DNA of 64,000 nucleotides. Source: Phormidium ambiguum IAM M-71 (GTDB lineage: Bacteria > Cyanobacteriota > Cyanobacteriia > Cyanobacteriales > Aerosakkonemataceae). The stretch lies in assembly GCF_001904725.1 (NCBI RefSeq), contig NZ_MRCE01000008.1, forward strand, positions 62,001 through 126,000. Reading direction: 5' to 3'. The notes beneath the pieces were generated by a model. The model searched no databases, was not told the DNA's origin, and was given only the letters and a program-made list of their open reading frames with translations. Below are positions 8,332 to 28,508 of this stretch, piece after piece (the stretch's first letter is position 1; each line of letters opens with the position of its first letter). Position numbers and translations under genes: made by a program.

Positions 8332-8408
<77 letters not shown>

Positions 8409-8411
8409 ATA

Positions 8412-8443
8412 AAACCCTTACATCTCATACGGTGTAAGGGTTT
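8412..8443 (+). terminator. Terminator hairpin after tRNA-Phe (element copy)
   Basis: An 11-bp perfect stem (AAACCCTTACA / TGTAAGGGTTT) with a 10-base loop, TCTCATACGG. The partner hairpin at 27644 has the same stem but the reverse-complement loop. Confidence 0.8.
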
Positions 8444-8544: not shown

Positions 8545-8766
8545 CTAACCATCAATTTCTATTTCACTAGCGATATAGGCTGTGAAGTGAATCAATGCTT
8601 CAATCGGTGATTGAAAATATTTATTCCGCAATCTAACGTCAATCGCGTAGTAACGCCAATACCAACCTTTGTCTTCTTTGTCAAAATCAATTATTAATCC
8701 TTCTATCCATTGCTCGCAATATTTATTAATTTCTGCATGGATGGATTGATCGTTGTTTTTAGTCAT
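8545..8766 (-). CDS. Small hypothetical protein, last gene of the integrase operon
   Basis: 73 residues, acidic, with tryptophan/tyrosine-rich WYWRYYAIDVRLRNKYF in the middle. No family recognised. Its ATG overlaps the integrase stop (ATGA), so it is translationally coupled and probably the last gene of the left-arm transcript. The position next to an integrase might suggest an excision-type accessory, but it has no clear winged-helix or Xis signature. Confidence 0.6.
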   Translation of the reverse strand: MTKNNDQSIHAEINKYCEQWIEGLIIDFDKEDKGWYWRYYAIDVRLRNKYFQSPIEALIHFTAYIASEIEIDG

Positions 8767-9848
8767 ATTTTTGGAACCTCCACTGAATTAATCACACCTG
8801 CATAATGCTGCCAAATCGTTTTAGGCGAGTTACCGACCCATGAGGCGACCTGGGCAACCGGGACACCTGATTCTAAACAGTGGGTTATGAAAGTGTGGCG
8901 AGTGTTGTACTGCTTTCGATACGCGATCGGTAATTCGTCAAAGGTTTTTTTCCATGCCCTCATCAGAAAATTGTGCGCGTCGATCGCCATCCCTTCAGGA
9001 GATGTGAAAATCAGCTGCTCCGTTTTGTACTGGTTCGGTCTGATTTCCAGTAAGAGCGATCGCAGTTGGTCATTTACTGGAAAGATTCTGGTTTTCCCAG
9101 TTTTGGTTCCCTTCCGATTGCCATTAACGATCGCCTCAGAGAACACTACTTTTTCTAAATTAAGTGACACTTTACCCCAAGTCAGCCCAACCGCTTCAGA
9201 TGTTCTGCATCCTGTCAAAAATAGGAATCGGACAAAGTTAGTGTAGTGATTGTAATACCTTGAATTAGCAAAAGCTTCAATTATTAAATCAACCTCTGCT
9301 TTGGTAAATGGTTGAATGTTGGCATTGTAAGGTTTTTTATCTACCGACAGCTTCTCAAAGGGATTGGTGCTAATAATTCCCTCGTTAATAGCCCAATTAC
9401 AACAAGCACCAAAGTACATCAACATCTTGCTGGTAGTTTCAGCAGAGTAATTATTTAGTAAGTAATCTCTGATTTTTCTCGCTTGATTAAAATTGTCGGT
9501 TGGTAATTTTTTAATGTGATTAGCAACTCTGATGAAATCTTTCTGTATAGTCGTTTGGGATAGCACTTTACTTTTCGCTTCAGTATATTGACTCCATAAT
9601 TCGCTTAATTGTGGATATTTGGGTGAGTAGTTGGGTTGGTATTTTTCCAGTGAATAATCAAATTTTTCAAAAGCAATGTCAGCAGCTATTGCTTGGGCTT
9701 TCATGTTTGCGGCTTGGCGATTGATTGGGGTGTCTGGTAATCCCAGGTGTAAGTATTTTTGTTCGCCATTGAATAGGAATCGGGGGAATCTGAGTAAAAG
9801 CATTCCCCTTTTAGATGTTACCGTGACTGAGCCTCTAGGATTTCTCAT
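8763..9848 (-). CDS. int: Tyrosine recombinase/integrase
   Basis: A 361-residue phage-type integrase that would recombine attP with the tRNA-Phe attB. Seen: an N-terminal arm-binding region (about 1-75), a SAM-like core-binding domain (about 75-170), and a catalytic domain with Arg in TGCRTSEAVGL (about 215), YNTRHTF as the H-x-x-R box (the first His is Tyr here), and the WQHYAGV nucleophile Tyr near residue 350. It lies next to attL, as expected for tRNA-directed integration. It ends in an ATGA overlap with the 73-residue gene. Confidence 0.93.
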   Translation of the reverse strand: MRNPRGSVTVTSKRGMLLLRFPRFLFNGEQKYLHLGLPDTPINRQAANMKAQAIAADIAFEKFDYSLEKYQPNYSPKYPQLSELWSQYTEAKSKVLSQTTIQKDFIRVANHIKKLPTDNFNQARKIRDYLLNNYSAETTSKMLMYFGACCNWAINEGIISTNPFEKLSVDKKPYNANIQPFTKAEVDLIIEAFANSRYYNHYTNFVRFLFLTGCRTSEAVGLTWGKVSLNLEKVVFSEAIVNGNRKGTKTGKTRIFPVNDQLRSLLLEIRPNQYKTEQLIFTSPEGMAIDAHNFLMRAWKKTFDELPIAYRKQYNTRHTFITHCLESGVPVAQVASWVGNSPKTIWQHYAGVINSVEVPKI

Positions 9849-10644: not shown

Positions 10645-10797
10645 TCATGGATTCCTCTTTTTAAAGCTCTTTGCTTCAGGACAAGTAGCCCAATGTGTTG
10701 AACCATCAGAATTAATAGGAGTAAATTTTCCTCTCTCAGTTTTCACCCATTGGATGACAGCACCACAAGCTTTGCATTGACTAACATTTTTTCTCAT
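10645..10797 (-). CDS. Small zinc-finger protein, 50 aa
   Basis: A 50-residue protein with one likely zinc site: CKAC (8-11) plus HWATC (35-39). Its layout, CxxCGAxIxW...TxxGKxxPI...DGxxHWxxCP, is one I associate with small proteins of phages and plasmids, function not known. The ATG at 10797 overlaps the primase-helicase stop (ATGA), which supports it as a real, coupled gene. Confidence 0.75.
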   Translation of the reverse strand: MRKNVSQCKACGAVIQWVKTERGKFTPINSDGSTHWATCPEAKSFKKRNP

Positions 10798-13664
10798 CCA
10801 ATTACCTCCACAGCTTCCAAGTTAAACATTTCAATGCTACGTTTACAGGTCACACGCGCCCAGTATTTACCATCCTTTCGGATTACAGCTTCTAGCTTTC
10901 CTTGATTTAAAGTCGATTTATTCCAAAAGTCATGGTCTTTATGTTTAAGAGCTTTTAAAATCGTTTTTTCTGGTATTAAAACGTTAAAGAATTCTTCATG
11001 AAATAAAGCTCCTACCGTTCCCTGTTCACATTGAACCCATCCATTTTCTTGGACTTCTGCAATAACGTAATGTTTGCCAGCAGATACTTTGTGCTTCTTG
11101 TTGATGATGATTGAATCACCAACTTTGTACGGTGGATGGGCGATCGCCTTTTCCTCTGCGATCGTTTGTTGGGCGATCGCATCTATTTTTTCTAGGAATC
11201 TTACCTGTACTACCAGTTCCGTCCCGTCATCATACTTAATTTTCGCGTGAGCTAATGGCTCACCTTTTCCAGGGTAAACATCTGAAATTAATTCCCCCTC
11301 TGTTACCAAATTTTCCAGGGTATATCTTACGCGATCGCCAATCTTCAATCCCTTAGCCAAGGCTTTTTCCATATCCTTAGCCAGCATCTCATTCTCGTAA
11401 TTTGCGCTTTCCGATTCTGCTGAATCATCAATTTTCGGAGTAGTTAACTGCCTAAAAACTTCCCTTTCTTTAGCATCAAGGTTTTCCCAAATAGCACCTC
11501 TAAATTCGGGTTTCTCAGCACAAATATCTTGAAGCACTACCTTAATGTGTCCTGCTGTTTCCGTGTCGTTGTCAGCAACCACGGCCTTTACCCAACCCAC
11601 ACAAGTTTCAACCGTGTCTTCTTGTGGAACAACTGGAGCAGCTTGCTGAACTTCTTGCTGTATGCGCTCTACAGCCTGTTCCAAATCTTCAGCGATTTTT
11701 ATATCCTCTTGCGGATCAGGCCAAACCCATCCCCAGGGGATACTTCCTGATTGAATCCTCCTTCGGCACCGCTTCCATCCCAAAATCATCATCACGGCAT
11801 TAGCACGGCGATTTGCCATCACATCCATCTGAGCAACATCAAGCCCGATCGCCTTTTCTAAAATTTGGGTGGTAGGGATAAACTCTGATTTTCGCTCTTC
11901 AACATAAGCAGAGATCGCATCTTGCCAAGGATCGACCTGGGAGAAATCTTCATTAAGGACTTTCTGAATTTCCATTTCCTCCCGTGATAATTCGCACGAA
12001 ACCCCAGCACGGTAGAGAGCCATAGCAGCGCCCCAAATGCGATCGCGTTCTGCTCTTAGGGTTTCAATCGGAATGGTATAAACTCCGACCGGAATCGGCA
12101 TATACCGTCTACTGCCTGTTTCATCTTGGAGAAAATCATCACGGTTCGCGGTGCCAGCAAAAACAAACGATCGAGGGTGAGGTTTACAGACACGGGCATA
12201 AGGTGCCCGGTAATCATCAGTATCACGAGACAAAAACCTTTTTAATTCTTCCTTTTCTTTCTTACGGGTGATTGCTTCAAACTCTCCGTACTCACAACAC
12301 CAGTAACGAGCCAAAATCATTAAGCTGTCTTTCTCCTCAGTTCCCGTTACCGAATCTGTAAAAAATTCTTCACCATGCAAAACCTTAAAAAACGTGCTTT
12401 TTCTTAAACCAGTTTTACCCTGCAAAATTAAGATTGTGTCGTATTTACACCCTGGTTCAAACGCTCTTTTACAAGATGCTATCAGATGCTTGGTGATGTA
12501 AGTTTGATGCAATGGATCGGAACTGCCAAAATATCGGAATGCGAAGTTATCTAAAATACTGTTGTCGGTTCCATATTTCTGGTAACAGGACTCCAAATAG
12601 TCCAATACAGGGTGATAACTATTTTCTTTAGCTATTTTATTTAGGATAGCCAAGCCGTCACCATCGCTAACATCTATGTCTAGTTCTTCAGCAATAAAAA
12701 GTTTAGCCCCTCCTTGGTCATCCAATTCATCAACCAATGGATTTCTGTTGTATTCAATGTATTTTTTCAATAGATTGTAGGATAGTTTGTTTCCGATTTT
12801 ATTTCTAATAAAATGAAGTTTGGCGTTAGTTTTACTGTTGAATTTTTGCTCCTTATCCTCCTCATCTGATTCATTTTCTGTCTTGATTTTCGGCTGTGCA
12901 AATTTCCGTTTTGGTTCAACTGCTTTAAGAATGTCGTCAGCTTTTAAATTAAAATCTCCAATCCAATCAGCAACATCCAAACCTTTACTTTCTGCAATTC
13001 TGCCAGGTTCCCAAAATGGGGAATCGGGATAAGCATAAAGCCATTTGGCGGCGGGGAAATTTTCGGCTATTTCCTCCATGTGTTTTAGCCCTGGTTTGTC
13101 GCGGTCTGGGCAGAGGATTATCTGTTCTGCACCCGCTAAATCATCGGTGTCTGTCTCAGTCCACTTTCCACTACCACCGATGTTAGTTGTTGCCGCTAAT
13201 CCCAAATCCCAAAGGGCATCAGCACAGGGTTCACCTTCAACTATGAATATAGGCTGTTTATCTTTAATTGCTTGCCTTATTTCGTGATAGCGATAAACAG
13301 AAATTTCATCCCTACTAATACCAGTTAATCCTTTTACCCATTTCTTAGTTTTTTCGTTCCATCGTTCCTGCCATCTATTAGGTTTACCGCCTTCACCGTC
13401 ATCGGTTCTACACACTCGTACAAGTGGTTTTTTAGTAAAGGTTTCTAGGTATACCCAGTATCTAGTTCCCTTCGGTCTAACCTTCTTTTTCGGCTGTTCT
13501 GGAGCGTAATAAAAACTGCCATCGCTGTCGGTTTTGGTTGTTTTATACCAACCTTGAGCGGGTTCTGCATCTCGTTTGCAAACCGTTAAATCATTTAGTG
13601 AATAACACCAATCGGGTTTGCCGCAATGGGGACAAGGATTAGTTTTTGATACGTGATTAAGCAT
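10794..13664 (-). CDS. Primase-helicase: zinc finger, Toprim-like, VirE-type ATPase
   Basis: 956 residues, the element's replication protein. Seen in order: a zinc finger at the N-terminus (CPHCGKPDWC...VCKRD), a Toprim/DUF3854-like primase part (about 135-210, FIVEGEPCADAL and CPDRDKPG), an acidic linker (about 255-280), a VirE-type SF3-like ATPase (about 350-650) with Walker A GKTGLRKST near residue 413 and a second acidic motif WCCEYGEFEAI, then a long C-terminal tail with SH3-like segments (about 770-960). Such proteins prime and unwind DNA at an element-specific origin. It is one of two element genes with a firm biochemical prediction; the likely origin is the palindrome at 16.1 kb. Confidence 0.88.
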   Translation of the reverse strand: MLNHVSKTNPCPHCGKPDWCYSLNDLTVCKRDAEPAQGWYKTTKTDSDGSFYYAPEQPKKKVRPKGTRYWVYLETFTKKPLVRVCRTDDGEGGKPNRWQERWNEKTKKWVKGLTGISRDEISVYRYHEIRQAIKDKQPIFIVEGEPCADALWDLGLAATTNIGGSGKWTETDTDDLAGAEQIILCPDRDKPGLKHMEEIAENFPAAKWLYAYPDSPFWEPGRIAESKGLDVADWIGDFNLKADDILKAVEPKRKFAQPKIKTENESDEEDKEQKFNSKTNAKLHFIRNKIGNKLSYNLLKKYIEYNRNPLVDELDDQGGAKLFIAEELDIDVSDGDGLAILNKIAKENSYHPVLDYLESCYQKYGTDNSILDNFAFRYFGSSDPLHQTYITKHLIASCKRAFEPGCKYDTILILQGKTGLRKSTFFKVLHGEEFFTDSVTGTEEKDSLMILARYWCCEYGEFEAITRKKEKEELKRFLSRDTDDYRAPYARVCKPHPRSFVFAGTANRDDFLQDETGSRRYMPIPVGVYTIPIETLRAERDRIWGAAMALYRAGVSCELSREEMEIQKVLNEDFSQVDPWQDAISAYVEERKSEFIPTTQILEKAIGLDVAQMDVMANRRANAVMMILGWKRCRRRIQSGSIPWGWVWPDPQEDIKIAEDLEQAVERIQQEVQQAAPVVPQEDTVETCVGWVKAVVADNDTETAGHIKVVLQDICAEKPEFRGAIWENLDAKEREVFRQLTTPKIDDSAESESANYENEMLAKDMEKALAKGLKIGDRVRYTLENLVTEGELISDVYPGKGEPLAHAKIKYDDGTELVVQVRFLEKIDAIAQQTIAEEKAIAHPPYKVGDSIIINKKHKVSAGKHYVIAEVQENGWVQCEQGTVGALFHEEFFNVLIPEKTILKALKHKDHDFWNKSTLNQGKLEAVIRKDGKYWARVTCKRSIEMFNLEAVEVIG

Positions 13665-15050: not shown

Positions 15051-15095
15051 ATTTTGAGATATCACGCTTGATGTGTCAAGTAGATATCTCAAAAT
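15051..15095. promoter_or_regulatory. Long nested dyad before the XRE regulator
   Basis: Perfect 13-bp arms ATTTTGAGATATC (15051-15063) and GATATCTCAAAAT (15083-15095) enclose a second dyad, CTTGA-tgtg-TCAAG (15067-15080). A third half-site-like GGGATATCAC follows to 15104. It lies 20 bases before the XRE start, so an autoregulatory operator or lysis/lysogeny-type switch is likely. Confidence 0.7.
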
Positions 15096-15114
15096 GGGAT
15101 ATCACTATGTTACA

Positions 15115-15360
15115 ATGAGTCGAACTAATAAAAGAAAACAGGAGAGTGATTCTGTCTTGGAAACTCTCAGGATAGAGCGAACGCAACTTTCACAAGATGA
15201 ATTAGCAGCTAAATGTGGTATTCCGCGAGCCACTTATATGAGATGGATCGCCGGAAAAACCGAAGCCCGACCAACATTGCCCCAGTTAAAAAAATTGTGT
15301 AAAGAACTGGGAATCAATCACATAGACGAGTTACCCGACGATTTCGGGCCACAAAATTGA
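15115..15360 (+). CDS. XRE-family HTH regulator
   Basis: 81 residues from the ATG at 15115; an in-frame ATG at 15073 lies inside the operator dyad and is less likely. The HTH is seen at QDELAAKCGIPRATYMRWIAGK (shown in parts: DELAAKCGI, RATYMRWIAGK), with a basic N-terminus and acidic tail. This is a Cro/CI-type DNA-binding fold without a dimerisation or peptidase domain, of Cro-like size. It diverges from the replication arm behind a nested operator, which fits the element's switch regulator. A strong terminator follows at once. Confidence 0.82.
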   Translation: MSRTNKRKQESDSVLETLRIERTQLSQDELAAKCGIPRATYMRWIAGKTEARPTLPQLKKLCKELGINHIDELPDDFGPQN

Positions 15361-15433: not shown

Positions 15434-16054
15434 TTATGGGCAACTGGTTTGAGGCTGTGCAAAATGGGGGGATGTTAGCCAGCTAAATCCTTCAGGCATC
15501 CTATTTGTGGGAGCAGTCCGAAAAATCTTGATCACTTCCTGAGCGGTCACATAAGAGGATCTTTCCCCGGACTGATAATATTTTTCTGCCATCTTTTGTC
15601 CAATACGAATGGCTTCCTGTCTGTTTCCATTCATAAAATTAACAACAGCGAATGCCCAGTAATTATCTTCGTCGCGTTTCATGCTCAATGCTAGCTTTAA
15701 ATCCTCAAAAGCCTGTTTATAGTCACCTATCAACGCAAAAGCATGACCACGATCTTTGTAAATAAGATCTCTGCGGGGATAGCCCAAAACTAAAGCTTGA
15801 TTGTAGTTTTGGATTGCAGCAACATAATTTCCTTTTTCGTGATGACTCAACCCTCGGAAGAAATACGCTTCTGCGTACCGAGGGTTAAGTTTGATGGCTT
15901 GAGAAAAAGCCATGACTGCCTGACCATATCCGCCCTGTCCCCAGTAAATGTGTCCCTCACAAAATAGACGTTGAGGTGTTTTTTGAGCGATCGCAGGTGT
16001 GGGAAGAGCGATCGCAGTAGACGCTAACAATACAAATAGAGAAATAGGCTTCAT
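15434..16054 (-). CDS. Exported TPR-repeat protein (element copy)
   Basis: 206 residues: a signal peptide (1-23, ending PAIA), then about four TPR units (about 30-150, for example YGQAVMAFSQAIKLNPRYAEAYFFRG) and a tail ending TSCP. It is paralogous along its whole length to the chromosomal protein at 27891-28508, including the ending (TSLCP there). TPR proteins are periplasmic or membrane-linked scaffolds. The gene faces the XRE gene and lies next to the palindromic array, and it looks like cargo rather than replication machinery. Confidence 0.8.
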   Translation of the reverse strand: MKPISLFVLLASTAIALPTPAIAQKTPQRLFCEGHIYWGQGGYGQAVMAFSQAIKLNPRYAEAYFFRGLSHHEKGNYVAAIQNYNQALVLGYPRRDLIYKDRGHAFALIGDYKQAFEDLKLALSMKRDEDNYWAFAVVNFMNGNRQEAIRIGQKMAEKYYQSGERSSYVTAQEVIKIFRTAPTNRMPEGFSWLTSPHFAQPQTSCP

Positions 16055-16111: not shown

Positions 16112-16518
16112 CTGATCCTGATCTAGAAAAATTTCCAATTAAAAAAACACCAGGATCACCAGGATCAACAGACTACTTCAGCTATTGTATCCATTGCAGC
16201 ATAAAGAATAGAGGGTGATCCTGGTAATGATCCTGGTCTTGGATCATTACCAGGATCATTTGGAACACCAGGATCACCTTAAAAAACAACATCGTTGTTT
16301 AAGTGGTTCGAGTTTCTTGATATTGCAGAGTATGTTTGATGATCCTGGTACCTTGATGATCCTGGTAATGATCCTGGTAACGATCCAGTACCAGGATCAT
16401 GACCAGGATCACCCTCAAACCTACACATAGTAATCAACATAATAGCTGAGGTAGTTTGTTGATCCAGGTGATCCTGGTGTTTTTTAAATGGGAAATTTTT
16501 CTAGATTAGGATCACCTG
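16112..16518. repeat. Large palindrome with 12 copies of GATCCTGGT/ACCAGGATC
   Basis: About 400 bp without a credible gene. Twelve exact copies of the 9-mer lie at 16149, 16158, 16217, 16229, 16249, 16267, 16341, 16358, 16370, 16390, 16402 and 16470, six in each orientation, plus degenerate ones. The whole block folds on itself: outer arms 16112-16190 and 16439-16518 match in inverted order (TCTAGAAAAATTTCC...AACACCAGGATCACC), inner arms 16210-16278 and 16341-16415 likewise, centre about 16310. Possible roles are an iteron-type origin, a partition site or a structured RNA. Confidence 0.85.
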
Positions 16519-16719
16519 TAAACTAAAAACCCCCAGCAAACAGCTAGGGGTTTGGAGGTGTTGAACGATTGCGGGTACGTCAATACCCATCAACTCCCCC
16601 AGGAAAGAACCTAAAAAAAATCCCATCTACATTTTGCCTGACTTTTGGAACATTCACAAACAGATATGTTCTGGATCACCTGCAAACTAAAAACCCCCAG
16701 CAACTAGCTAAGGGTTTTT
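16509..16719. repeat. Two copies of a 46-bp hairpin segment
   Basis: Segments 16509-16554 and 16673-16719 match closely (GGATCACCTG-AAACTAAAAACCCCCAGC and a terminator-like hairpin ending GGGTTT). The second lies just past the end of the minus-strand 118-residue gene and could stop that transcript. The first abuts the right arm of the large palindrome. Confidence 0.7.
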
Positions 16720-16734
16720 ACTCATGGGGACAAT

Positions 16735-17091
16735 CTACTGGTGGTTCTGCACAAAATCTAAAAAAGGTATTTTCTTACCTGTCACCAAAATCGACTCAAC
16801 CTTTAACTTCCACTCCATAAGATTCCAATCTTCACTCTGATGACGATGCAGCAACCCCAAATCATAAAGCCTCTCTAAAAAGGAGTAGCAGATATTAGGA
16901 TGCTTCTTTGCAAGATGGGCTACCTGCTCAGTTGACATCCAATCATCCCCCCATTGCCACAACACCCACAAGATAAAATTTGCGCTGTTAACTTCAGGTC
17001 GCAAGCATCCAATTTTTTCAGACAAGGGGTAAAGAAGCCCCATATCACGGGCTGACAATAAAACGGGATCGAGAACGATTGGTTCATCCAT
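16735..17091 (-). CDS. Hypothetical protein, possibly winged-helix
   Basis: 118 residues, mostly helical, with the segment MSTEQVAHLAKKHPNICYSFLERLYDLGLL reading like a winged-helix DNA-binding unit (helix-turn-helix about 55-80). Its start follows the stop of the 70-residue gene without a gap, so the pair is one operon. It sits next to the iteron-like palindrome, so a DNA-binding role there is conceivable but unproven. Confidence 0.55.
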   Translation of the reverse strand: MDEPIVLDPVLLSARDMGLLYPLSEKIGCLRPEVNSANFILWVLWQWGDDWMSTEQVAHLAKKHPNICYSFLERLYDLGLLHRHQSEDWNLMEWKLKVESILVTGKKIPFLDFVQNHQ

Positions 17092-17304
17092 CTAACGCTT
17101 CTTCCCAATCTGCTTAAGCAGATAATTCCTTTCCTTATGCAGCTGCTCCACTACTCGCGTAGCATCCCACCCAAAAGCCTTACAGAGATTCTGTACCAGC
17201 GTCCCGTGTGGTCGGTACGGCTTCTCCTTCCCAAAAGCCATCCTAATCCGTGTAAATCTCCTTTTTGTCACGAAGTTCATGCTGTCATAGAAGGGGGTTT
17301 CCAT
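17092..17304 (-). CDS. Small basic protein, 70 aa
   Basis: 70 residues, strongly basic, mainly helical (FVTKRRFTRIRMAFGKEK, NLCKAFGWDATRVVEQL). No family recognised. It opens a two-gene operon with the possible winged-helix protein and faces the plus-strand right arm across 215 bp. A regulatory or DNA-binding role is only a guess. Confidence 0.55.
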   Translation of the reverse strand: METPFYDSMNFVTKRRFTRIRMAFGKEKPYRPHGTLVQNLCKAFGWDATRVVEQLHKERNYLLKQIGKKR

Positions 17305-17519: not shown

Positions 17520-17843
17520 ATGGCTGGATTCATTGATGCGGCTGATTTTCGGACTGCATTGGCAACTGTGGCACCTGGTATTACTGTATCCGCAGTCCAA
17601 TATCCCGACGGGACTGATGTTTTACCTGTGGTGGTCGCATTCTTACGGACGCTAGAAGAACAGCAAGTTGCTCAAAATGCAGTAGCACCAACGGGTGAAG
17701 ATGTAGCAGCAATCAGCGTTGGTTATGGTGCGGAAGAAACAGTAGATATTGCTGGTACTCCGACCAGAGTAAGACGCGCTACTCGCACTGTTTCCTGCTA
17801 CGAAAAATACAGCGTTTCTGATGTCTATTCGATTACCGTTTAG
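17520..17843 (+). CDS. Hypothetical protein, first gene of the right arm
   Basis: 107 residues beginning MAGFIDAADFRTALATVAPG, hydrophobic-rich and beta-prone at the C-terminus (SCYEKYSVSDVYSITV). No signal peptide. A good site (AAAGGAA) precedes the ATG. As the first gene of a tight plus-strand block it may be highly expressed. A small structural protein is possible; I do not recognise it. Confidence 0.6.
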   Translation: MAGFIDAADFRTALATVAPGITVSAVQYPDGTDVLPVVVAFLRTLEEQQVAQNAVAPTGEDVAAISVGYGAEETVDIAGTPTRVRRATRTVSCYEKYSVSDVYSITV

Positions 17844-17887
17844 ACCGTTAATGCTTAAAAACTTTGAAATTTTAAAAGGAACGCTTT

Positions 17888-18520
17888 ATGCCAGTTAACC
17901 GAAGAAGCCCTGAATGGCGGAAAATTACGCCTTTTACTGGATTAGATATTTTGTATGGCTTTCGTAGCAGAACATTGGGAAGCGATCAGGCTGAATTAGG
18001 GCAAACTGCGATCGTCCCAGACACCGATTTTTCTAAATTAGTCATCGCTCCCAACAACTGCCAACCTCACTCAGCCACAAAGCGAGGCGCGACAGGCAGC
18101 AGTAACGGGTTGATTGGAGCAGATAAAATTGCAGCTGCTGTAGCTAGTGGCAAATGGAAAATCAAATGGGGATATCCTCCCAGAAACCGGAAGCCAAAAG
18201 GTGAGAACAAAAACATCAAGATTGTTATTGGCACCATCAACATCGGGTATATTCGTGCTGCTGATGGCCTGTACGACCAATTAGCGAATTTTGGGCATAA
18301 AACGCCAGACGCTACAGATGCAGGAAAGCTCTTTTACGGATGTCAGTTTCCCATGCCACCAAAACTTGCCGTGACAACAGATACAGGAAAGAGCGTTTCT
18401 TCCTACGCCGATCCAGCAAAAATTGACGACATTGTTTCAGCAGGTGGCAGGCTAATCCATCCCGGCGCATACAACGCGGTACACCTAGCCAACATGGTCG
18501 CGGTAGCAGCGGCTCCATAA
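17888..18520 (+). CDS. Hypothetical protein, candidate structural component
   Basis: 210 residues, basic in the middle (WGYPPRNRKPKGENK), otherwise beta-rich, with Gly/Ala-rich stretches and no signal peptide or membrane segment. It precedes three small genes with 1-2 base spacing, so they form one transcript. The low hydrophobicity, size and position would suit a coat-type protein, but this is inference only. Confidence 0.6.
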   Translation: MPVNRRSPEWRKITPFTGLDILYGFRSRTLGSDQAELGQTAIVPDTDFSKLVIAPNNCQPHSATKRGATGSSNGLIGADKIAAAVASGKWKIKWGYPPRNRKPKGENKNIKIVIGTINIGYIRAADGLYDQLANFGHKTPDATDAGKLFYGCQFPMPPKLAVTTDTGKSVSSYADPAKIDDIVSAGGRLIHPGAYNAVHLANMVAVAAAP

Positions 18521-18521
18521 T

Positions 18522-18776
18522 ATGAGTGACATTCTCTGGCTACCTGGCGATCGCGGTTTTTCTGAAACCTTGCTGCTATCCCGTCCCCCTGGATGGCACC
18601 AAGTAGCAGCCAAAAATGGGAATGGCGCTGCGATGGTAGAGGACGCAGAAACTGGAGTCATGCGACCTGTAGACGAAAAAGGGCTTGAGGAATATATGTA
18701 CGGCGGTGAATATGATGAAGCCGAACAGAAAAGCCAAATTTTAGTGCCGATCGGAATTGAATTTGAAGAGGACTAG
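18522..18776 (+). CDS. Small acidic hypothetical protein, 84 aa
   Basis: 84 residues, acidic C-terminus (GIEFEED), a Trp-rich start (ILWLPGDRGF). It starts 1 base after the preceding stop and ends 2 bases before the next ATG. Not recognised. Confidence 0.6.
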   Translation: MSDILWLPGDRGFSETLLLSRPPGWHQVAAKNGNGAAMVEDAETGVMRPVDEKGLEEYMYGGEYDEAEQKSQILVPIGIEFEED

Positions 18777-18778
18777 TA

Positions 18779-19123
18779 ATGCCCTGGAATTCTCTGGGAA
18801 CCGTTACGCCCGCACATGGAAGTTTTTCCTATTTCAGTCAATCCGCATCACTCGCTGAATTCTTTCGATTAACCTACGCTGCCAGCACCTTTACAAAGGT
18901 AGATTCCTTTGGCTGGTTAGCGTGGCGTTACATCGGCGGAGAGGAAACCCTCCCCCCAGTTTTGGCAATGCGTGTTTACCCGGATATGAGAGGGAGATTA
19001 ATTCATCTCCCATATCCTCCACAAATGATTGATTTGGGATATGTTACCCGCCAATTTGAAATTAGGAAAAACTGGAAAGATGCTATTTTTTGGTCGATCC
19101 AAATAGAGGAATTAATAATATGA
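18779..19123 (+). CDS. Hypothetical protein, 114 aa
   Basis: 114 residues, aromatic-rich and beta-prone (SFSYFSQSAS, FGWLAWRYIGG, RQFEIRKNWKDAIFW). No signal peptide or membrane helix. Tight spacing with neighbours on both sides shows it belongs to the block. Not recognised. Confidence 0.6.
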   Translation: MPWNSLGTVTPAHGSFSYFSQSASLAEFFRLTYAASTFTKVDSFGWLAWRYIGGEETLPPVLAMRVYPDMRGRLIHLPYPPQMIDLGYVTRQFEIRKNWKDAIFWSIQIEELII

Positions 19124-19124
19124 A

Positions 19125-19331
19125 ATGGGGAAGAAAGGGCAGCAAAGCAAGAAGGGCATCGGGGAGAAAGAGCCAGACGGTTCACCTCGAAATAGACGCT
19201 TACAATGCTTTCTCCCAGAAGCAAAGATTGCCACCTTAAAAGCAATAGCCAAGAGCAAAAAAAGCTCACTTACGGATATAGTCTCAGAAGCGATAGATTT
19301 TTATTTAAATGTGCATAAATCTACTGATTAA
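19125..19331 (+). CDS. Small basic protein, ribbon-helix-helix-like
   Basis: 68 residues. A lysine-rich N-terminus is followed by RRLQCFLPEAKIATLKAIAKSKKSSLTDIVSEAI, which reads like a CopG/Arc ribbon-helix-helix DNA-binding unit (strand, helix, helix). Another ATG 5 bases earlier opens a different, shorter frame and is not favoured. It closes the first sub-block of the right arm and could be a regulator of it. Confidence 0.55.
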   Translation: MGKKGQQSKKGIGEKEPDGSPRNRRLQCFLPEAKIATLKAIAKSKKSSLTDIVSEAIDFYLNVHKSTD

Positions 19332-19371
19332 GTGTTACTCAACACTCGGAAATCAGGGATGTAGTAAGACC

Positions 19372-19428
19372 GCTTTTTAAACTGTTCGTGAATTTTTTAT
19401 AGTTCAACTGACGAACAATTTAAAAAGC
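19372..19428. repeat. 18-bp inverted repeat in a 130-bp spacer
   Basis: Arms GCTTTTTAAACTGTTCGT (19372-19389) and ACGAACAATTTAAAAAGC (19411-19428) differ at one position, with a 21-base loop. A second small perfect hairpin (AGTGTT-actc-AACACT) lies at 19331-19346. They separate the 68-residue gene from the next block and could be an operator, terminator or recombination site. Confidence 0.65.
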
Positions 19429-19461
19429 AGTAACATTAAGTAAAAGAGCGAAATAAATTGT

Positions 19462-19833
19462 ATGAAACTTTTACTTGCTACAAAACCTGTTATTGAAATT
19501 CCGGTTAACGCCCCCGCAAAAGTAGAATCTATTAATCATGTTCCTTTATTGGAAATTTCCGCAGCATTTCTATCAATTGGCTTAGCAATAGCAGCTTTGA
19601 TTAGGGCTGGTACTGCCAAGCAGGTAGTACTGCGAGAAGCAGAGACAGAATTAATTAAGAATCTGCGGCACGAAATTGAAGAAAAGGACGAAGAAGTAGA
19701 AACCTTGAAGCGCAAAATCTATCGCTTAGAAAATCGCTTAAGAATTGCGGATATTGAATTATCCGGCCCAATAAATCCACCCGTAGGAGTTTACAATGGC
19801 GCTTTCCCCCAGAGTAATTCAGGCAATTATTGA
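19462..19833 (+). CDS. Membrane-anchored coiled-coil protein, holin/spanin-like
   Basis: 123 residues. One hydrophobic helix (about 28-48, LLEISAAFLSIGLAIAALI) is followed by a charged coiled coil (about 55-95, EKDEEVETLKRKIYRLENRL). It overlaps the start of the hydrolase gene by 38 bases, an arrangement common in phage lysis cassettes. A holin- or inner-membrane-spanin-like role is inferred from layout and size, not from sequence family. Confidence 0.6.
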   Translation: MKLLLATKPVIEIPVNAPAKVESINHVPLLEISAAFLSIGLAIAALIRAGTAKQVVLREAETELIKNLRHEIEEKDEEVETLKRKIYRLENRLRIADIELSGPINPPVGVYNGAFPQSNSGNY

Positions 19834-20413
19834 ATATTGCCAAAATCAGAATTACAAATTATTCACCAATCCCGGTGAATATAATATTTTGTATGTTGAA
19901 GGGATGGATACAGAAGGGGAATTAAACAATGATTCCCCTAACCAATTTAATGATGTAAGGGTTGTCCTCAACAGCAATTTTCAGCTTTGTGGAAACTGGA
20001 GTGCAACCACTGAACCGGGAAGATTCTACACCCTTAATCCCATGAACAAAAAAGGCGCTGCACGAATCGCCTTTGGTCAATTTAAAGCTTGGTCAGTGGG
20101 TAATCATGGAAACTCTGAGCCTCATAGAGCATTACTGCAAGTAAGCCCGGTCAAAGTGTTTAGAGATGCTAATAAGGATGGGTTAAGGACTGGAGATGCA
20201 GTAGATGAAGGGCTTTTTGGAATTAACCAACATTGGGGGTACGATCTGCCCTTAGATGATATTCGCAAGGCTTCTGCTGGCTGTCTGGTAGGCAGAACGA
20301 GACAGGGACACCAGCAATTCATGAATATTATTACTGGTGATGTTAGGTATCACCGCGATCGCAGTTTTGTGTTCTCCACAATCATCATTCCAGGTGACAA
20401 ATTGAAATTATGA
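19796..20413 (+). CDS. YkuD-like/endolysin-like hydrolase
   Basis: 205 residues. Motifs GNHGNSEPHRAL, FGINQHWGYD and ASAGCLVGRTRQGH suggest an L,D-transpeptidase-like (YkuD-type) fold with a His and a Cys as catalytic pair. Similar proteins occur in cyanobacteria as I recall, often of unassigned function. There is no signal peptide, so export would need a holin; the preceding overlapping gene might supply it. A peptidoglycan-active enzyme used for release or entry is the best reading, and the exact bond is unknown. Confidence 0.6.
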   Translation: MALSPRVIQAIIEYCQNQNYKLFTNPGEYNILYVEGMDTEGELNNDSPNQFNDVRVVLNSNFQLCGNWSATTEPGRFYTLNPMNKKGAARIAFGQFKAWSVGNHGNSEPHRALLQVSPVKVFRDANKDGLRTGDAVDEGLFGINQHWGYDLPLDDIRKASAGCLVGRTRQGHQQFMNIITGDVRYHRDRSFVFSTIIIPGDKLKL

Positions 20414-20709
20414 TATTTAACATTTCTCCACCGGAACAATTAGATAATTCGGTAACGATAACAAATTGGCTTGGTGCAATCTATCCTGTTACCGCTTTAC
20501 TCGAAGAAATTATTACAGCAGATCCCAACAGGAAAAAGTTATTTCTTGAAAATAGAAGCGCTGAAAATATTTATATTAAATTTGGTGACGCTAATACAGA
20601 ATTAATGGCTATTTACCCTGATTCTGCATGGGTAGAAGAAGATGCTGCAAGCTTTAGCGTATGGGCTGAAGGGAACGGTAATTTGTACGTTGCACAATGG
20701 ATTGTTTAA
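20410..20709 (+). CDS. Small beta-rich protein, virion-decoration-like
   Basis: 99 residues. The segment DPNRKKLFLENRSAENIYIKFG resembles short phage structural proteins that read PNRxxLxIxNxSxxxIYVxFG. It starts in an ATGA overlap with the hydrolase gene and ends tail-to-tail with the minus-strand 184-residue gene, their stop codons overlapping. A small decoration or fibre-tip protein is plausible. Confidence 0.6.
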   Translation: MIFNISPPEQLDNSVTITNWLGAIYPVTALLEEIITADPNRKKLFLENRSAENIYIKFGDANTELMAIYPDSAWVEEDAASFSVWAEGNGNLYVAQWIV

Positions 20710-21260
20710 CTAACTTCCCATACCTTTAAATCATAAAATCTAGCTTGTGGTGCCCAAGAAGTCGTATCCCACATTTTAAAGCGTAACCTATCCCATACAT
20801 AGGGAATGATCACATCGATATTCGCTATTAAATCTTGGGTATTTGACAAGGTTCCAAAGTAACTCCAAAGATTAACGTAACTTGAAAAACTGACGTTGAA
20901 AGCGGCCAATTCAAACATACATCTATTATTATTACTATTCCTAAGTCCGACCTTAAAATTTATCCTGGTAAATTGCGGAATGGCTACACCAGGAAGCAAT
21001 ATAATCTCACCATTTGCCCATGCTACACCTCCTACAACTTCAAATAAATTAGAAGCTGAAGAAGAGTCGGAATCATACAAAGCCTGTAAATTTTGGGGCG
21101 CGATATGCCACCCATTTGAGGAATTTGATTCATAAGTAGGCTGCAAAGTTAGGGGTGTAAAAGTTAATCCTGTGGGATTAGCAGAACTTAATAACTGATC
21201 TATTTTTTCTTCTACAATCTCTAACTTGTCTTTGATAGGTTTTAAATTTTGAATAAGCAT
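20706..21260 (-). CDS. Fibre-like protein: coiled coil plus beta domain
   Basis: 184 residues. A short N-terminal coiled coil (about 5-27) leads to a Ser/Asn-rich, beta-prone body and a C-terminal jelly-roll-like segment (RFKMWDTTSWAPQARFYDLKVWEVS in part). That layout suits a trimeric fibre or adhesin tip. It is the last of three minus-strand genes, 4 bases after the 542-residue gene. No family recognised. Confidence 0.55.
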   Translation of the reverse strand: MLIQNLKPIKDKLEIVEEKIDQLLSSANPTGLTFTPLTLQPTYESNSSNGWHIAPQNLQALYDSDSSSASNLFEVVGGVAWANGEIILLPGVAIPQFTRINFKVGLRNSNNNRCMFELAAFNVSFSSYVNLWSYFGTLSNTQDLIANIDVIIPYVWDRLRFKMWDTTSWAPQARFYDLKVWEVS

Positions 21261-21264
21261 TTTA

Positions 21265-22893
21265 TTAATTAAACCCCGTAAATCCTTCAGGTTTTCTAGT
21301 CATCCATAAATCAACTTTCATGTTTCGTTCAAACCATTTAGCGTCCGGGTTGGCCATTTTGTATCTGCCTTTCCTTTCCCATCTTTCCCCGTCTTCCGCA
21401 GCGTTTTGATGAACTGTTAAGGTACAGTCCCAAGCATAAAATCTTTCTGGAGCCTCTTCTTTTTTAGAAGCCGAAGCAGACAATTTTGTAGGGGTTTGAC
21501 CGCGAAAATCGACATTGCTTGGCATTAGACGAATAAGCTTTTTCATTCGCCGTTCGCATTCCGCCTCACTAGCGCCAGTTATAGTCAGGTTGCCAAGATA
21601 TCTATCTTGGATAAAGCATTTCCAAATTGTCCGCCAGTAAGGATTACCGCGCATAAATTCATCAGCAGCGGCTTTAACATCGTTCCAAGACAATCCCTGC
21701 TTAACGTAAGGAATATTACATTCAGCGAATTTACCTGGAATCCCTCTTTGATCTGTCAGTGGTGGCCCATCTTTGGCTTGTGTGTTCCACCTAATTTTTA
21801 ATTGCCGTTGGGCTGGACTCTTCCTAAGCACATCCTCCAGTTCGCCACCAATAATGACACCAATATCCTTCTTAGCCATCAGCTGTTCCTCATGCAGGAT
21901 TCTCTCGGTTTCTTCCTGCACGAATTCCTGTGGGCCTGTGATGATGTAGGTGTCTTTGTCGGCATTGCGATCGGGCTTTAAGATGATGGTTCGCTGGGGG
22001 CCTTTAGCATCTTTAGCAGCTTGGCGTGCTAAAGCCCATTGGGAATCAAATTCGGATGCAGCAATGTAGCCACCTTCTAAAATCGCTTCGCCAAATTCTT
22101 CCAAAAAGTTTTCTACAGGCTGTTGCCAGTCCTTTGGTAGTTTCTCTTTTGCATCCTCTATTTTTTTTGCAAAGCTTGCGTTAGCACCAGCGATTTTTAC
22201 TGATTCCATCCCGAACCACTCGTGCTTTCTTGCGGTAAGTACAAACCCAAGAAAAGCATTATCTAATTGAGCGTTGCGGAATTGAGTTAACAGCTGATAT
22301 AGCCTTCCTCGGATTTCTTCCCCCCCTTCTTCAGCAACCGCAGCTGCCACCCGACCAGTAACAACCGGGACTTTAATATCTAATTTCTTGCCTGCACCAG
22401 CCGCACCAAATAATCTGCCAGCAGCTAAAGTGGCAACACGGACAACACCCCAACCTAAAGCGGCTCCTAATGCCCCTGCTGCACCTTCAACTATTGTTTG
22501 GTTATTCCTTTTGATTCTTTGCTCAATAGCAGCATCGGTTTGCGCCCAGTCGAAAGTCACAACTTTAGCTGTCAATTGAACCAACGTTGACCACCATTCA
22601 CTAAAAGTTCTAGGGAATAGTTTAGAAACAGCCGTGAACAGAAAACCCCCGTATTTTTTTATGGGATTAACAATCCATCTTTGAATAAAACTTACGCCTT
22701 GCTGAATCAGACCTCCCTGACCAGCATCCACTTGATCGGCGTTAATTCTGCGAATGCCATCGCTAACCGGAATTTTAATAATCCCTGCTACAGTCCCACT
22801 AGTCGAAAATTTCCGTAACTCCCGACTTCTCAATTCACTAGGCTTTATTTTCAAAGGTGAAAAAAAGCCATCAAAAGGATTTGGAAGTGCCAT
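21265..22893 (-). CDS. Large hypothetical protein with membrane-active segment
   Basis: 542 residues. An N-terminal region includes aromatic/amphipathic helices (about 60-110, FIQRWIVNPIKKYGG, EWWSTLVQLTAKVV) and a Gly/Ala-rich hydrophobic stretch (about 130-170, AAGALGAALGWGVVRVATLAAGRLFGAAGAG in part) that could insert in membranes. The C-terminal 200 residues are soluble and charged. It overlaps the 120-residue gene by one base (TAATG). Candidate roles are a membrane-penetrating virion protein or a tail-tape-like protein, but nothing confirms either. Confidence 0.55.
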   Translation of the reverse strand: MALPNPFDGFFSPLKIKPSELRSRELRKFSTSGTVAGIIKIPVSDGIRRINADQVDAGQGGLIQQGVSFIQRWIVNPIKKYGGFLFTAVSKLFPRTFSEWWSTLVQLTAKVVTFDWAQTDAAIEQRIKRNNQTIVEGAAGALGAALGWGVVRVATLAAGRLFGAAGAGKKLDIKVPVVTGRVAAAVAEEGGEEIRGRLYQLLTQFRNAQLDNAFLGFVLTARKHEWFGMESVKIAGANASFAKKIEDAKEKLPKDWQQPVENFLEEFGEAILEGGYIAASEFDSQWALARQAAKDAKGPQRTIILKPDRNADKDTYIITGPQEFVQEETERILHEEQLMAKKDIGVIIGGELEDVLRKSPAQRQLKIRWNTQAKDGPPLTDQRGIPGKFAECNIPYVKQGLSWNDVKAAADEFMRGNPYWRTIWKCFIQDRYLGNLTITGASEAECERRMKKLIRLMPSNVDFRGQTPTKLSASASKKEEAPERFYAWDCTLTVHQNAAEDGERWERKGRYKMANPDAKWFERNMKVDLWMTRKPEGFTGFN

Positions 22894-23255
22894 TATTGAT
22901 TAATTGAATAAACCTCTGTATCTGTAACTTGCAGCATGGTGTTGAGCGTCTGCTGCATCTGTACATAATTTGCTGGCGGATTCATGTTTGCGTAATACTG
23001 AGCGCTTCCACTGAAGGGGGGAGAAAAACTAGCTATACGATTACCAACCGCAGCAGTTAGATTAAATTTTTCCTGCATTTGATAACCCATGTTAAACAAT
23101 TTATAAACGCTATCAATAAAATCGGTGCTGTTCAAATTATTAATGGGTTTTCCATTCAAAAGGCTTAGGTCAATATAGGCTTTTCCGCTAATTATCACGA
23201 AAATATCTTGGGTAGTCACGCCCAAAGATTTAGCATGGTCAAATGTTAAGCTCAT
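22893..23255 (-). CDS. Hypothetical protein, first gene of the minus block
   Basis: 120 residues, with Asn/Tyr/Gln-rich C-terminal half (SAQYYANMNPPANYVQMQQTL) and a mostly helical prediction. It begins the three-gene minus block, divergent from the 23341 gene across 85 A/T-rich bases that must hold both promoters. Not recognised. Confidence 0.55.
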   Translation of the reverse strand: MSLTFDHAKSLGVTTQDIFVIISGKAYIDLSLLNGKPINNLNSTDFIDSVYKLFNMGYQMQEKFNLTAAVGNRIASFSPPFSGSAQYYANMNPPANYVQMQQTLNTMLQVTDTEVYSINQ

Positions 23256-23340
23256 AGAAAAAATGTTGAAATAGAGATAATTTATAAATATAATTTAAAA
23301 CAGCAGAAAACGCGATAACTTTTTAATAATTAAACACAAA

Positions 23341-24210
23341 ATGGCGCTATATTCCGACCAGGATAAAATCACGATTCAGAACACAAATAACCGCAATATA
23401 ATCAAACAGATAACTAGTGCTAACGGTTCTAATATTATCGATTTGTACACCCCAACTATGCAATCTTCTTACAATAACTGGGTAAGTACAAGACGAGATG
23501 GATATATTACATATTTAGACGCGACTATCGTAATGCCAAGCTTGCAGGAAACCAGCATACCTCCCATACCAGAATCGGCATTACCAGAAGAAGTAAAAAA
23601 ATTATTATATGAGGTTTCCCAACTTACTCAATTCAGAACCCTACACTTCTGGATTAGGTTTGAAGGTTCACCCGCAATAGAAAAATGTTCAATCCCGATT
23701 TTCAATAGAAAACCTTTTTCAACGATTAGCTTAATGCCCTTTTTCTGTGGCACAAACAATACCTTAGATTTAGGCACAAATGGCGGTGGAGCGGGAACGG
23801 TAATTAGTTTAAGCGTATCGCCACCACTAGCAGCAGAAGATAAAATTACCATCTTTGGTACCGCAATTGAGAGAGCTTACTGGGAGCCTCTCTTAGCACC
23901 TCCAGATGTAAGTATGATTAACATCGAATACGCCAGTTACCAAAGAAATATTACCGACACAGAATCAGTAGCTTTAGCTGCTAATGATAAAAGAAACAAT
24001 GCCACATTCGTTAATTACAGCGACCCACCAGTAGGCGCTAATTGGCACGATTACATAATTTGGATTAAACAAGGAAATGGGCCTGGAAAACCTTTATCAC
24101 CAAGAGGAGGAAGCTATCAAATTACCAAAAGTAATTATTGGAGTGGGCCAGTAAAAGCGATTAGTACAGAATCTACTTTATTAGCAGTAGAAGAAGGTGT
24201 GGAAGTATGA
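23341..24210 (+). CDS. Beta-rich hypothetical protein, 289 aa
   Basis: 289 residues, largely beta, with Ser/Thr/Pro-rich loops (ETSIPPIPESALPEE, GGGAGTVISLSVSPP). No signal peptide. It starts a tight four-gene block; its stop overlaps the next ATG (ATGA). Possible virion or surface protein; not recognised. Confidence 0.6.
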   Translation: MALYSDQDKITIQNTNNRNIIKQITSANGSNIIDLYTPTMQSSYNNWVSTRRDGYITYLDATIVMPSLQETSIPPIPESALPEEVKKLLYEVSQLTQFRTLHFWIRFEGSPAIEKCSIPIFNRKPFSTISLMPFFCGTNNTLDLGTNGGGAGTVISLSVSPPLAAEDKITIFGTAIERAYWEPLLAPPDVSMINIEYASYQRNITDTESVALAANDKRNNATFVNYSDPPVGANWHDYIIWIKQGNGPGKPLSPRGGSYQITKSNYWSGPVKAISTESTLLAVEEGVEV

Positions 24211-24839
24211 AATTTGATTTAACGATTAGGCGAAATTTTGACGTAGAGCATAAGCCGAAAGTAGACAGGCTTTTACCCTCCCACCCAATGAACTTGAGAG
24301 GACATTTACCCTATTGGTATTTGCGGACTAGATTCAAGCAATACGGATTAGCCGATTATGATTTACCACTGAGAGGAGTTACTAGAGAACCTGATTATGG
24401 AGAAGCGATGTTTATCCAACGCTCAAAAATTGAAGCTTTGGGGACTACTTATTTTGGATTAGGAGCAATTCTGCCCTATCACGAATTATTTTTTAGAGCA
24501 ATGTGGGAGATAGATTTTGATAAGCCTGAATTAGTCCAGGGGGAAAAAATTGACCCTGATGCACCTTGGGCATTTAGATATTTTAATGATTATCTTCGGC
24601 AACTTGAACCAGGAAATTATCAATTAAAAATTGTATTTTTATCAGTTAATGGGTATGGAAATGCCAAGGTTGAATTATTCACGGATATTAATGGCCAACC
24701 AGGGACGTTAATTAATAGTGACAATTTAACTAAAAATCAGAATGCTTGGGAATTTACCATTACCAGTGCCGCTAATTACTTCATTCGGATTACCACCGGA
24801 TCGAGGTACATTCACACCATTGAAAAATTTGAGGATTAA
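24207..24839 (+). CDS. Hypothetical protein with C-terminal beta-sandwich
   Basis: 210 residues. The first half is basic and aromatic (HLPYWYLRTRFKQYGLADY). The last 80 residues look like a beta-sandwich (YQLKIVFLSVNGYGNAKVELF, FTITSAANYFIRITTGSR), a fold seen in adhesion and carbohydrate-binding modules. Coupled to the preceding gene by ATGA and 2 bases from the next. Not recognised. Confidence 0.58.
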   Translation: MKFDLTIRRNFDVEHKPKVDRLLPSHPMNLRGHLPYWYLRTRFKQYGLADYDLPLRGVTREPDYGEAMFIQRSKIEALGTTYFGLGAILPYHELFFRAMWEIDFDKPELVQGEKIDPDAPWAFRYFNDYLRQLEPGNYQLKIVFLSVNGYGNAKVELFTDINGQPGTLINSDNLTKNQNAWEFTITSAANYFIRITTGSRYIHTIEKFED

Positions 24840-24841
24840 TT

Positions 24842-25594
24842 ATGACTTTTGGAAACATAGGAGGATTTTTAATTGATTTTACCGGGGCGGCTGGCGACTT
24901 AATGAACGGGATGAGTGACAACTTTCACGATCCTTGCAGCCAAAGAGTGACAATTGGTGTAGGTGATAGGGTTCCCGTAGTTGTGAGGGCTTCTGGTGGC
25001 GTGGTGGTTCGATCTGGTCAGCCAGTAGAAAATCAAGTAAATCTACAAAATACCGTTCAAATTACGGCACAAAATGTGTCTGTAGGAATTTCTCAACCAG
25101 GCGGCGCGAGTAATCCAATTCGACAGGAACAACCACAATCTGTCACTCAACCACAAACGATCGCGGTAACAGAAGCTATTAACGAAACCTTACAAGAATT
25201 TTCTCAAAATGGTCAATCGGTTGGAGTAACGCTACTCATTCCCAAAGTAATAGTAGAAAATAAAAGTGCAAGCAATGTAGTTCAAGCTTTGGGTCAGCAA
25301 ATAGCTGTAGAAGTTGACGCAACACGACAGGCAGCACAGTTATTAAGCCAGTCCGATGAGGTTTTATACAATCAATTAGCTAATCAATTAAGAAATAATC
25401 AAGCCAATTTACAAGCGATCGCTCAAAAATCTGGATTTGGGTTTGATGATGTCAATGCTCTTAAAAATGCAATGTTTAGCAATGACAATAAACTTTTACA
25501 ACAAATACTTCAAAAGAACGCTGAGAAGGTCGCAGCATTAACAAAAAACTTACAAACCGCTGCTTCTAATATTGCGGTGAGGGCTTGTGGATGA
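24842..25594 (+). CDS. Hypothetical protein, Gln/Asn-rich helical C-terminus
   Basis: 250 residues. A Gly-rich, possibly membrane-associating start (FGNIGGFLIDFTGAAGDLMNGM) and a Val-rich beta stretch are followed by a long helical, Gln/Asn/Ala-rich C-terminal half (about 150-245) with coiled-coil character. Its stop overlaps the next gene's ATG (ATGA). An elongated structural protein would fit; not recognised. Confidence 0.58.
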   Translation: MTFGNIGGFLIDFTGAAGDLMNGMSDNFHDPCSQRVTIGVGDRVPVVVRASGGVVVRSGQPVENQVNLQNTVQITAQNVSVGISQPGGASNPIRQEQPQSVTQPQTIAVTEAINETLQEFSQNGQSVGVTLLIPKVIVENKSASNVVQALGQQIAVEVDATRQAAQLLSQSDEVLYNQLANQLRNNQANLQAIAQKSGFGFDDVNALKNAMFSNDNKLLQQILQKNAEKVAALTKNLQTAASNIAVRACG

Positions 25595-27594: not shown

Positions 27595-27640
27595 CTGAAA
27601 ATCCTCGTGTCACCGGTTCAAGTCCGGTTCCTGGCATAAA
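27595..27640 (+). repeat. attR core repeat (46 bp, partial tRNA-Phe)
   Basis: Identical to 8363-8408; contains the tRNA-Phe 3' part only, so it is not a functional tRNA. It marks the right end of the element. Confidence 0.93.
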
Positions 27641-27643
27641 GTA

Positions 27644-27675
27644 AAACCCTTACACCGTATGAGATGTAAGGGTTT
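27644..27675 (+). terminator. Terminator hairpin beside attR, loop inverted
   Basis: The same 11-bp stem as 8412-8443, but the 10-base loop is CCGTATGAGA, the exact reverse complement of the left copy. A T-run follows. This is probably the original chromosomal tRNA-Phe terminator. Confidence 0.8.
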
Positions 27676-27890: not shown

Positions 27891-28508
27891 TTAAGGACAG
27901 AGACTGGTGTAACCATAAGAATTAGGATGTAAGCCCCAATGATATCCATAATTTCGACCAGCACGAATTCTTTTGATAGCATCAATTGTTGTTTCGTAAG
28001 CATTTGTTTGCTTTTCTCTGTAGTAATGTGCTGCTAACTTCTCTAAAGTGGCGATGGCAGATTTCCTATCTCCTAAATCTAAATAAATCTGAGCTATGGC
28101 TTTATCAGCATAATCATACAGATTCTTGCTAATTACTTGACGCATTAGCTTTAGATCTTCGATTGCTTGCCTATGGTTTCCCAATTTTACCAAAGTAGCT
28201 GCTCGGTTCATGAGGGAAGGAGAGAGTAGTGGATCGCCAATACCCATTGTTAGAGCCTGATTAAAGTTAGCCAACGCCTCTGGATATCGCTTCTGAAGGT
28301 AATGAGCAACGCCTCGATAAAAATAAGCCTCAGAAAGTTGAGGGTTGTAATGAATTGCCTGCGAAAAAGAGTTAATTGCTTGTCCGTATCGGTCGTTTCG
28401 TAGTTCAGAAATGCCCATACAGAATGAGTTTGGTACTTTGGCAGAAACAGGTAGTGCAACCGCAAAGGTTATTACAATTGAGGCGCTTAGTATTCGATTG
28501 AATTTCAT
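27891..28508 (-). CDS. Exported TPR-repeat protein (chromosomal copy)
   Basis: 205 residues: a signal peptide (1-23), about four TPR units (for example YGQAINSFSQAIHYNPQLSEAYFYRG) and a tail ending TSLCP. It is a full-length paralog of the element's TPR protein at 15434-16054. It lies just outside attR on the same strand as that copy. The role is unknown; TPR units generally mediate protein contacts. Confidence 0.82.
   Translation of the reverse strand: MKFNRILSASIVITFAVALPVSAKVPNSFCMGISELRNDRYGQAINSFSQAIHYNPQLSEAYFYRGVAHYLQKRYPEALANFNQALTMGIGDPLLSPSLMNRAATLVKLGNHRQAIEDLKLMRQVISKNLYDYADKAIAQIYLDLGDRKSAIATLEKLAAHYYREKQTNAYETTIDAIKRIRAGRNYGYHWGLHPNSYGYTSLCP

Follow-up and report, generated by a model that had tools for sequence, protein, structure and literature searches.

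The closest described counterparts of the locus analysed here are the replication origins of the SaPI/PICI type and of phage P4. According to the origin-related parts of the respective papers, two iteron sets flank an A+T-rich region in PICI origins (PMC6092414), and these origins sit immediately 3' of the initiator gene (PMC6092414, PMC7581432). For SCCmec Cch2, excerpts of PMC7581432 describe a putative origin downstream of the gene, with just three 5-nt iterons, which are bound by the C-terminal domain of a helicase related to D5 and SaPI5-Rep. Phage P4 (X51522) carries alpha on the minus strand, small genes, an ori with type-1 repeats ~2.3 kb upstream of alpha and rightward late genes, as well as a second site, crr, behind alpha. 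A limited look through titles and abstract openings of open-licence literature revealed none on cyanobacterial VapE genes with iteron origins inside or behind them.

The palindrome described here lies in a 64-kb stretch of DNA, the whole of which we call the window. On the basis of sequence comparisons we regard it, with a probability of about 80%, as the iteron replication origin of the VapE-type primase-helicase of the surrounding element. This reading assigns a hitherto unexplained palindrome to an initiator-iteron pair of a cyanobacterial element, and that pair can be tested. The palindrome consists of the following parts:

16113-16514, no strand: proposed replication origin, a palindromic array of iterons whose 148-nt arms are 84% complementary; 12 exact 9-mers, six per strand
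16113-16278, no strand: left iteron set, with exact copies at 16149(-), 16158(-), 16216(+), 16228(+), 16249(-) and 16267(-) and a one-mismatch copy at 16113(+)
16279-16338, no strand: 60-bp centre, candidate melting region, with 32% G+C compared to 41% in the element, but not uniquely A+T-rich (60-bp stretches at the outer ends similar, 32-35% G+C)
16340-16514, no strand: right iteron set, with exact copies at 16340(+), 16357(+), 16369(+), 16390(-), 16402(-) and 16469(+) and variants at 16460(+, one mismatch) and 16505(-, two mismatches)

A motif scan of the window detected 12 exact matches to GATCCTGGT, all inside 16149-16478 and six on each strand, as an earlier note on this DNA had counted them; 100 dinucleotide shuffles of the window gave a mean of 0.25 and a maximum of 1. 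For the 10-mer TGATCCTGGT the scan revealed 12 exact copies, one-mismatch copies at 16113 and 16460 and a two-mismatch copy at 16505. The longest inverted repeat pairs 16113-16260 with 16367-16514, its 148-nt arms being 84% complementary and separated by 106 nt, and inner parts of the arms also pair locally (16216-16233 with 16241-16258). The palindrome had been called near-perfect, which holds for its outer ~75 bp, whereas toward the centre the spacers have diverged and gaps are present. The note further stated that no comparably dense dyad iterons occur elsewhere in the window; the other both-strand clusters there are weaker, the largest having 9 copies (63763-63942). In an ungapped inverted-repeat scan the palindrome was the sole repeat of the window over the cut, with a score of 76; the best score among 21 other fetched loci was 36. 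Of the 84 GATC sites in the whole 19.2-kb element, 18 fall within the block, whose only ORF of at least 60 aa is a 71-aa frame built of repeats. A terminator-like stretch of 45 bp is duplicated (91%) at 16509-16553 and 16673-16717, overlapping and then following the right end of the palindrome.

The element that contains the palindrome is bounded by a tRNA-Phe repeat, a direct repeat of 81 bp (91%) at 8363 and 27595, 19,232 bp apart, whose first 46 bases are identical. Its features outside the array are:

8363-8443, plus strand: attL, the 3' part of tRNA-Phe (tRNA 8332-8404) and the following hairpin, in the 81-bp direct repeat
8763-9848, minus strand: tyrosine integrase, intact (Pfam Phage_integrase, E 6.6e-14; phrog_1, E 3.5e-45)
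10794-13664, minus strand: 956-aa VapE-type primase-helicase, proposed initiator (Pfam VapE-like, E 5.6e-68; PHROGs DNA helicase and primase families; PriRep1 fold)
11685-12674, minus strand: helicase domain and C-terminal helical/beta-hairpin part of this protein, a putative winged helix and proposed iteron-binding domain (AlphaFold2)
15073-15360, plus strand: XRE-type regulator (Pfam HTH_3, E 1.3e-9)
15434-16054, minus strand: TPR protein, immediately left of the array (Pfam TPR_1, E 1e-14)
16735-17304, minus strand: two small genes to the right of the array, for proteins of 118 aa and 70 aa (ORFs; searches)
27595-27675, plus strand: attR, the second copy of the tRNA-Phe 3' repeat (direct repeat)

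Between the repeats the order is integrase, primase-helicase, XRE regulator, TPR protein, palindrome, the two small genes and a late module. The palindrome thus separates leftward early and replication genes from rightward late genes, and it lies 2.45 kb upstream of the start of the primase gene. A hairpin follows the tRNA-Phe repeat at both ends (8409-8443 and 27641-27675), with the loop sequence inverted between the copies. Among the element proteins covered by a partial scan, none was named as a capsid, terminase or satellite gene product.

A structural model of residues 331-660 of the primase-helicase (AlphaFold2; mean pLDDT 89.9, pTM 0.80) matched the fold of PriRep1 with dsDNA best (7pds; E 2.9e-18), followed by the NrS-1, poxvirus D5 and SaPI5 primase-helicases; the profile match to PriRep1 7pds had an E of 8.8e-50. 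We read the part C-terminal to the helicase in this model as a putative winged helix. Single-protein searches for the primase in genome contigs and viral contigs confirmed nothing; an alignment-based search did succeed. The closest primases among the relatives are those of L075 (46%) and L078 (47%), but their contigs end at or before the helicase end, so that the best test cases are missing.

Of the 291 genomes of the order, 75 contained VapE genes. The loci around VapE genes that were searched for 9-mers recurring on both strands inside 400 bp are a chosen part of these places, mostly with helicase-domain matches; they form a non-random sample. Together with the window, 61 fetched loci left 54 (window included) with a helicase hit and enough sequence behind it, L075 and L078 being too short behind the helicase and L073, L074, L086, L092, L093 and L121 having no hit that reaches the helicase end. 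At least six copies (at most one mismatch) of one 9-mer on both strands, within -200 to +800 bp around the helicase end, were present in 38 of the 53 relatives and absent from 15, compared with 5 of 139 control 1-kb windows taken from 20 other regions of the same genomes. Under a strict cut (at least seven copies, at least two on the rarer strand) 33/54 loci had a cluster, and 33 of 61 clusters started -8 to +199 bp from the helicase end; the 20 control regions (397,713 bases) yielded 7 clusters. Both-strand clusters outside the six-copy count were seen in L092/L158, L074, L086, L159 and L161. Of 80 viral contigs, 78 were testable; 22 showed a strict cluster behind the helicase and 56 failed, and 22 of 31 clusters started -100 to +74 bp from its end; some of the loci are near-copies of one another. 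Each primase cluster behind a helicase end has its own motif, and the frequency of such clusters was unexpected. Relative to the first in-frame stop (n=38), 27 clusters lie before it, 5 span it and 6 lie after it. The survey suggests a rule: the origin should be sought directly behind the VapE helicase domain, often still in the reading frame.

As a yardstick, the same script recovered crr and ori of phage P4, which are both annotated as iteron sites. It also found 17 copies of one 9-mer, TGCCTAACC (at most one mismatch), as a both-strand cluster directly behind the primase gene of cyanophage S-LBS1 (L154, 7122-7499). This cluster resembles the array of the window, from which it differs in its iteron and in its position behind the gene, and it is probably the origin of S-LBS1; in a word search of the paper's text (PMC6157547), 'iteron' and 'palindrom' did not occur and 'replication origin' occurred once, in a reference title. 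BT61P1, a Bacteroides phage with a VapE helicase, had no cluster of at least six copies in 9.1 kb.

The window primase gene has no cluster behind its helicase end, where the best 9-mer reaches 4 copies, and TGATCCTGGT (at most one mismatch) has no copy behind the gene, so that the element under study itself breaks the best positional rule. The palindrome score of the window (76) is higher than that of any of the 38 relatives' clusters, whose mean was 15.0 compared with 10.2 in 70 controls; only L117 (49), L076 (29) and L077 (26) stand out among them. In L117, the second most palindromic case, the cluster behind the VapE end contains an inverted repeat that is perfect over 49 nt, its arms being 303 nt apart.

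The window has in common with the SaPI/PICI type an initiator with a VapE/PriRep-type helicase (best match 7pds), encoded on the element itself, and many short iterons, here 12 exact copies and three variants in two mirror sets that enclose the 60-bp centre. In contrast, its two iteron sets form one long palindrome, and the array lies upstream of the gene with no cluster behind the helicase, a position in which most relatives do carry a cluster (33/54 under the strict cut). The layout of P4 is also found in the window, with the initiator gene on the minus strand, small genes, rightward late genes and an array at 2.45 kb, close to the distance of the P4 ori from alpha. The window differs from P4 in having no second site, and the P4 repeats (GGTGAACAG, compared with TGATCCTGGT in the window) were outside the ten best in the window-motif comparison. 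As the array is not 3' of the gene and lacks a second site, we file the putative origin of the window as neither PICI nor P4; by analogy, it most likely works like one of them. Binding of the iterons was demonstrated for Cch2 in the excerpts of its paper and is proposed for the window.

Across 39 primases the similarity of iterons tracked that of winged helices (Spearman 0.33, Mantel p 0.001), a result that leans on close relatives having both motif and protein in common. The iteron nearest to the window's, GGTGATCCAG, belongs to L116, the locus with the second most similar winged helix; in 300 column shuffles the window motif never reached the L116 score against any motif. The locus with the nearest winged helix, L079, had an iteron score of 2.81, about average (mean 2.46). 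Dozens of diverged primase/iteron pairs make it possible to test for a recognition code of the winged helix, and such pairs could supply small replicons for cyanobacteria.

Displaced iteron arrays have precedents among the relatives. The primases of L087 and L088 are 83% identical over 327 residues and have a common iteron core, AGGTATAG; relative to L088, the main cluster of L087 is shifted downstream by 2.4 kb. L100 has TGATCCA arrays in two places, as inverted copies, one 1.7 kb upstream of the primase gene and the other 3.4 kb beyond, and no cluster behind the primase. The window shows that uncoupling of an array from its proposed initiator gene is possible. The trend between motif and winged helix, the moving arrays and the layout of the P4 ori tie the palindrome, as a putative origin, to the VapE origin type. 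The array is most likely an origin of the type that related primases have directly after their gene or within its 3' end, but displaced.

For the proposed iteron origin we envisage that the primase-helicase acts on the element after its excision, or in place. It would bind the repeated 10-mer on both mirror-image iteron sets, probably through its C-terminal winged-helix part, and initiate replication at the array. Staphylococcal Rep proteins serve as the model for the next steps: a pair of hexamers would form, melt the A+T-richer centre and, once loaded on opposite strands, prime replication. It is conceivable, if rather unlikely, that the mirror arms are themselves functional, in that one large dyad, possibly extruded as a cruciform, positions two opposed hexamers, and that the arrays of this initiator family move from element to element and duplicate in inverted form as separable cassettes (window, L100, L117, L087/L088).

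The earlier note had left the choice between an iteron origin, a partition centre and a long hairpin RNA; the comparison with related primases strengthened the first. A partition or regulatory site, with operators for XRE, the 70-aa or 118-aa neighbour or a ribbon-helix-helix-like protein serving segregation or repression, appears improbable. Candidate genes do lie within a few kb, among them a 68-aa protein 2.6 kb off with a ParG match (E 0.053), which remains below the threshold at 14.1 bits compared with a cut-off of 21.4, but no ParA family was detected among the scanned proteins, which covered part of the small ORFs, and such both-strand clusters go with VapE genes in other elements. In addition, G004 (L073, L157), the nearest relative of the late module, has TPR and late genes ~445 bp apart, lacks a VapE hit and shows no cluster of more than 6 copies on both strands; the array therefore goes with the primase and not with the late module. 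A tie of the array to the late module through relatives of its 542-aa protein was rejected on the same grounds. L260, a second late-module-like locus of the own genome, had no strict cluster.

The late module itself (17520-27537) encodes uncharacterised proteins. Relatives of its 542-aa protein (21265-22893) occur in 39 of the order's 291 genomes (own included); this protein matched nothing in Pfam or PHROGs at E 0.01 and nothing among phage records at E 1e-3. The module is perhaps an undescribed class of cyanobacterial element. The 70-aa neighbour of the array had a match in 13 of the 291 genomes (own included), several of them lying close to relatives of the 542-aa protein, and by these matches it belongs to the late module and not to the array. 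The 118-aa neighbour matched in the own genome only. In G004, too, the TPR gene adjoins the late module.

A long hairpin RNA would require that the block is transcribed into structured or double-stranded RNA, e.g. as a regulator or as a processing or termination signal between the TPR and the small genes. For the RNA, a very stable fold is predicted (-228.9 kcal/mol, z -26.5; 0/100 shuffles equally stable), and terminator-like hairpins are present at 16509-16553 and 16673-16717; however, any long inverted repeat folds in this way, and so does the DNA strand (-125.7 kcal/mol, z -19.8; 0/100 shuffles equally stable). The gapped alignment of the arms contains 8 G-U, 8 A-C and 15 other mismatches; G-U and A-C being equal, neither RNA strand is favoured and nothing points to selection of a strand-specific hairpin RNA. 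What is spared from divergence are the iterons and not the stems: mismatches between the arms affect 2/59 iteron positions compared with 22/89 spacer positions (Fisher p 4e-4), a difference to which the definition of iterons by motif similarity adds some bias, lessened by counting a position if either arm has an iteron. The block has no Rfam family match, and iterons recur in relatives, whereas long arms do not. Taken with this sparing and the strand-symmetric mismatches, we judge a hairpin RNA very improbable.

Since the outer arms are 92-93% alike, spacers included, one half of the palindrome looks like an inverted duplicate of the other, apparently a fairly recent one. Least probable of all is that the block has no function, being a chance inverted duplication of a short repeat, which this likeness would fit, or a dispersed mobile (MITE-like) repeat, given that the iterons are kept between the arms while the spacers decay and that the block occurs in single copy, with few and short matches elsewhere. 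Scattering of the repeat over the chromosome, which the earlier note had named as speaking against a connection with the element, was not found: a 431-bp search of the 7.4-Mb genome returned nothing but the block, the block matched to its own reverse complement and, at a distance of 160 bp, a piece of 22 bp, and a 21-base double-iteron pattern (at most 3 mismatches) occurred genome-wide at one place outside the block, with 3 mismatches. When a 1,261-bp region around the palindrome was compared with 60 related genomes, matches of 26 to 34 bases were obtained in 3 genomes besides the own, and phage and plasmid records contained no DNA relatives. The 21-base pattern had one exact match in viral contigs (L093). 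This locus was dropped as a relative because the strict scan showed no cluster of at least six of the motif and no VapE hit there; its sole 9-mer with 4 copies is a different motif.

Some further observations concern the surroundings of the locus and its relatives. Two TPR proteins of ~205 aa, at 15434-16054 and just outside attR (27891-28508), look like paralogues by eye. A group I intron (Rfam RF00028) is located at 38107-38303 of the window on the minus strand, where ARAGORN reported no tRNA. The gene content and the GCGATCGC repeats of the genome point to a cyanobacterium. L105 has two VapE loci ~5.7 kb apart with matching iteron clusters, either because the replication module was duplicated in tandem or as an effect of the assembly.
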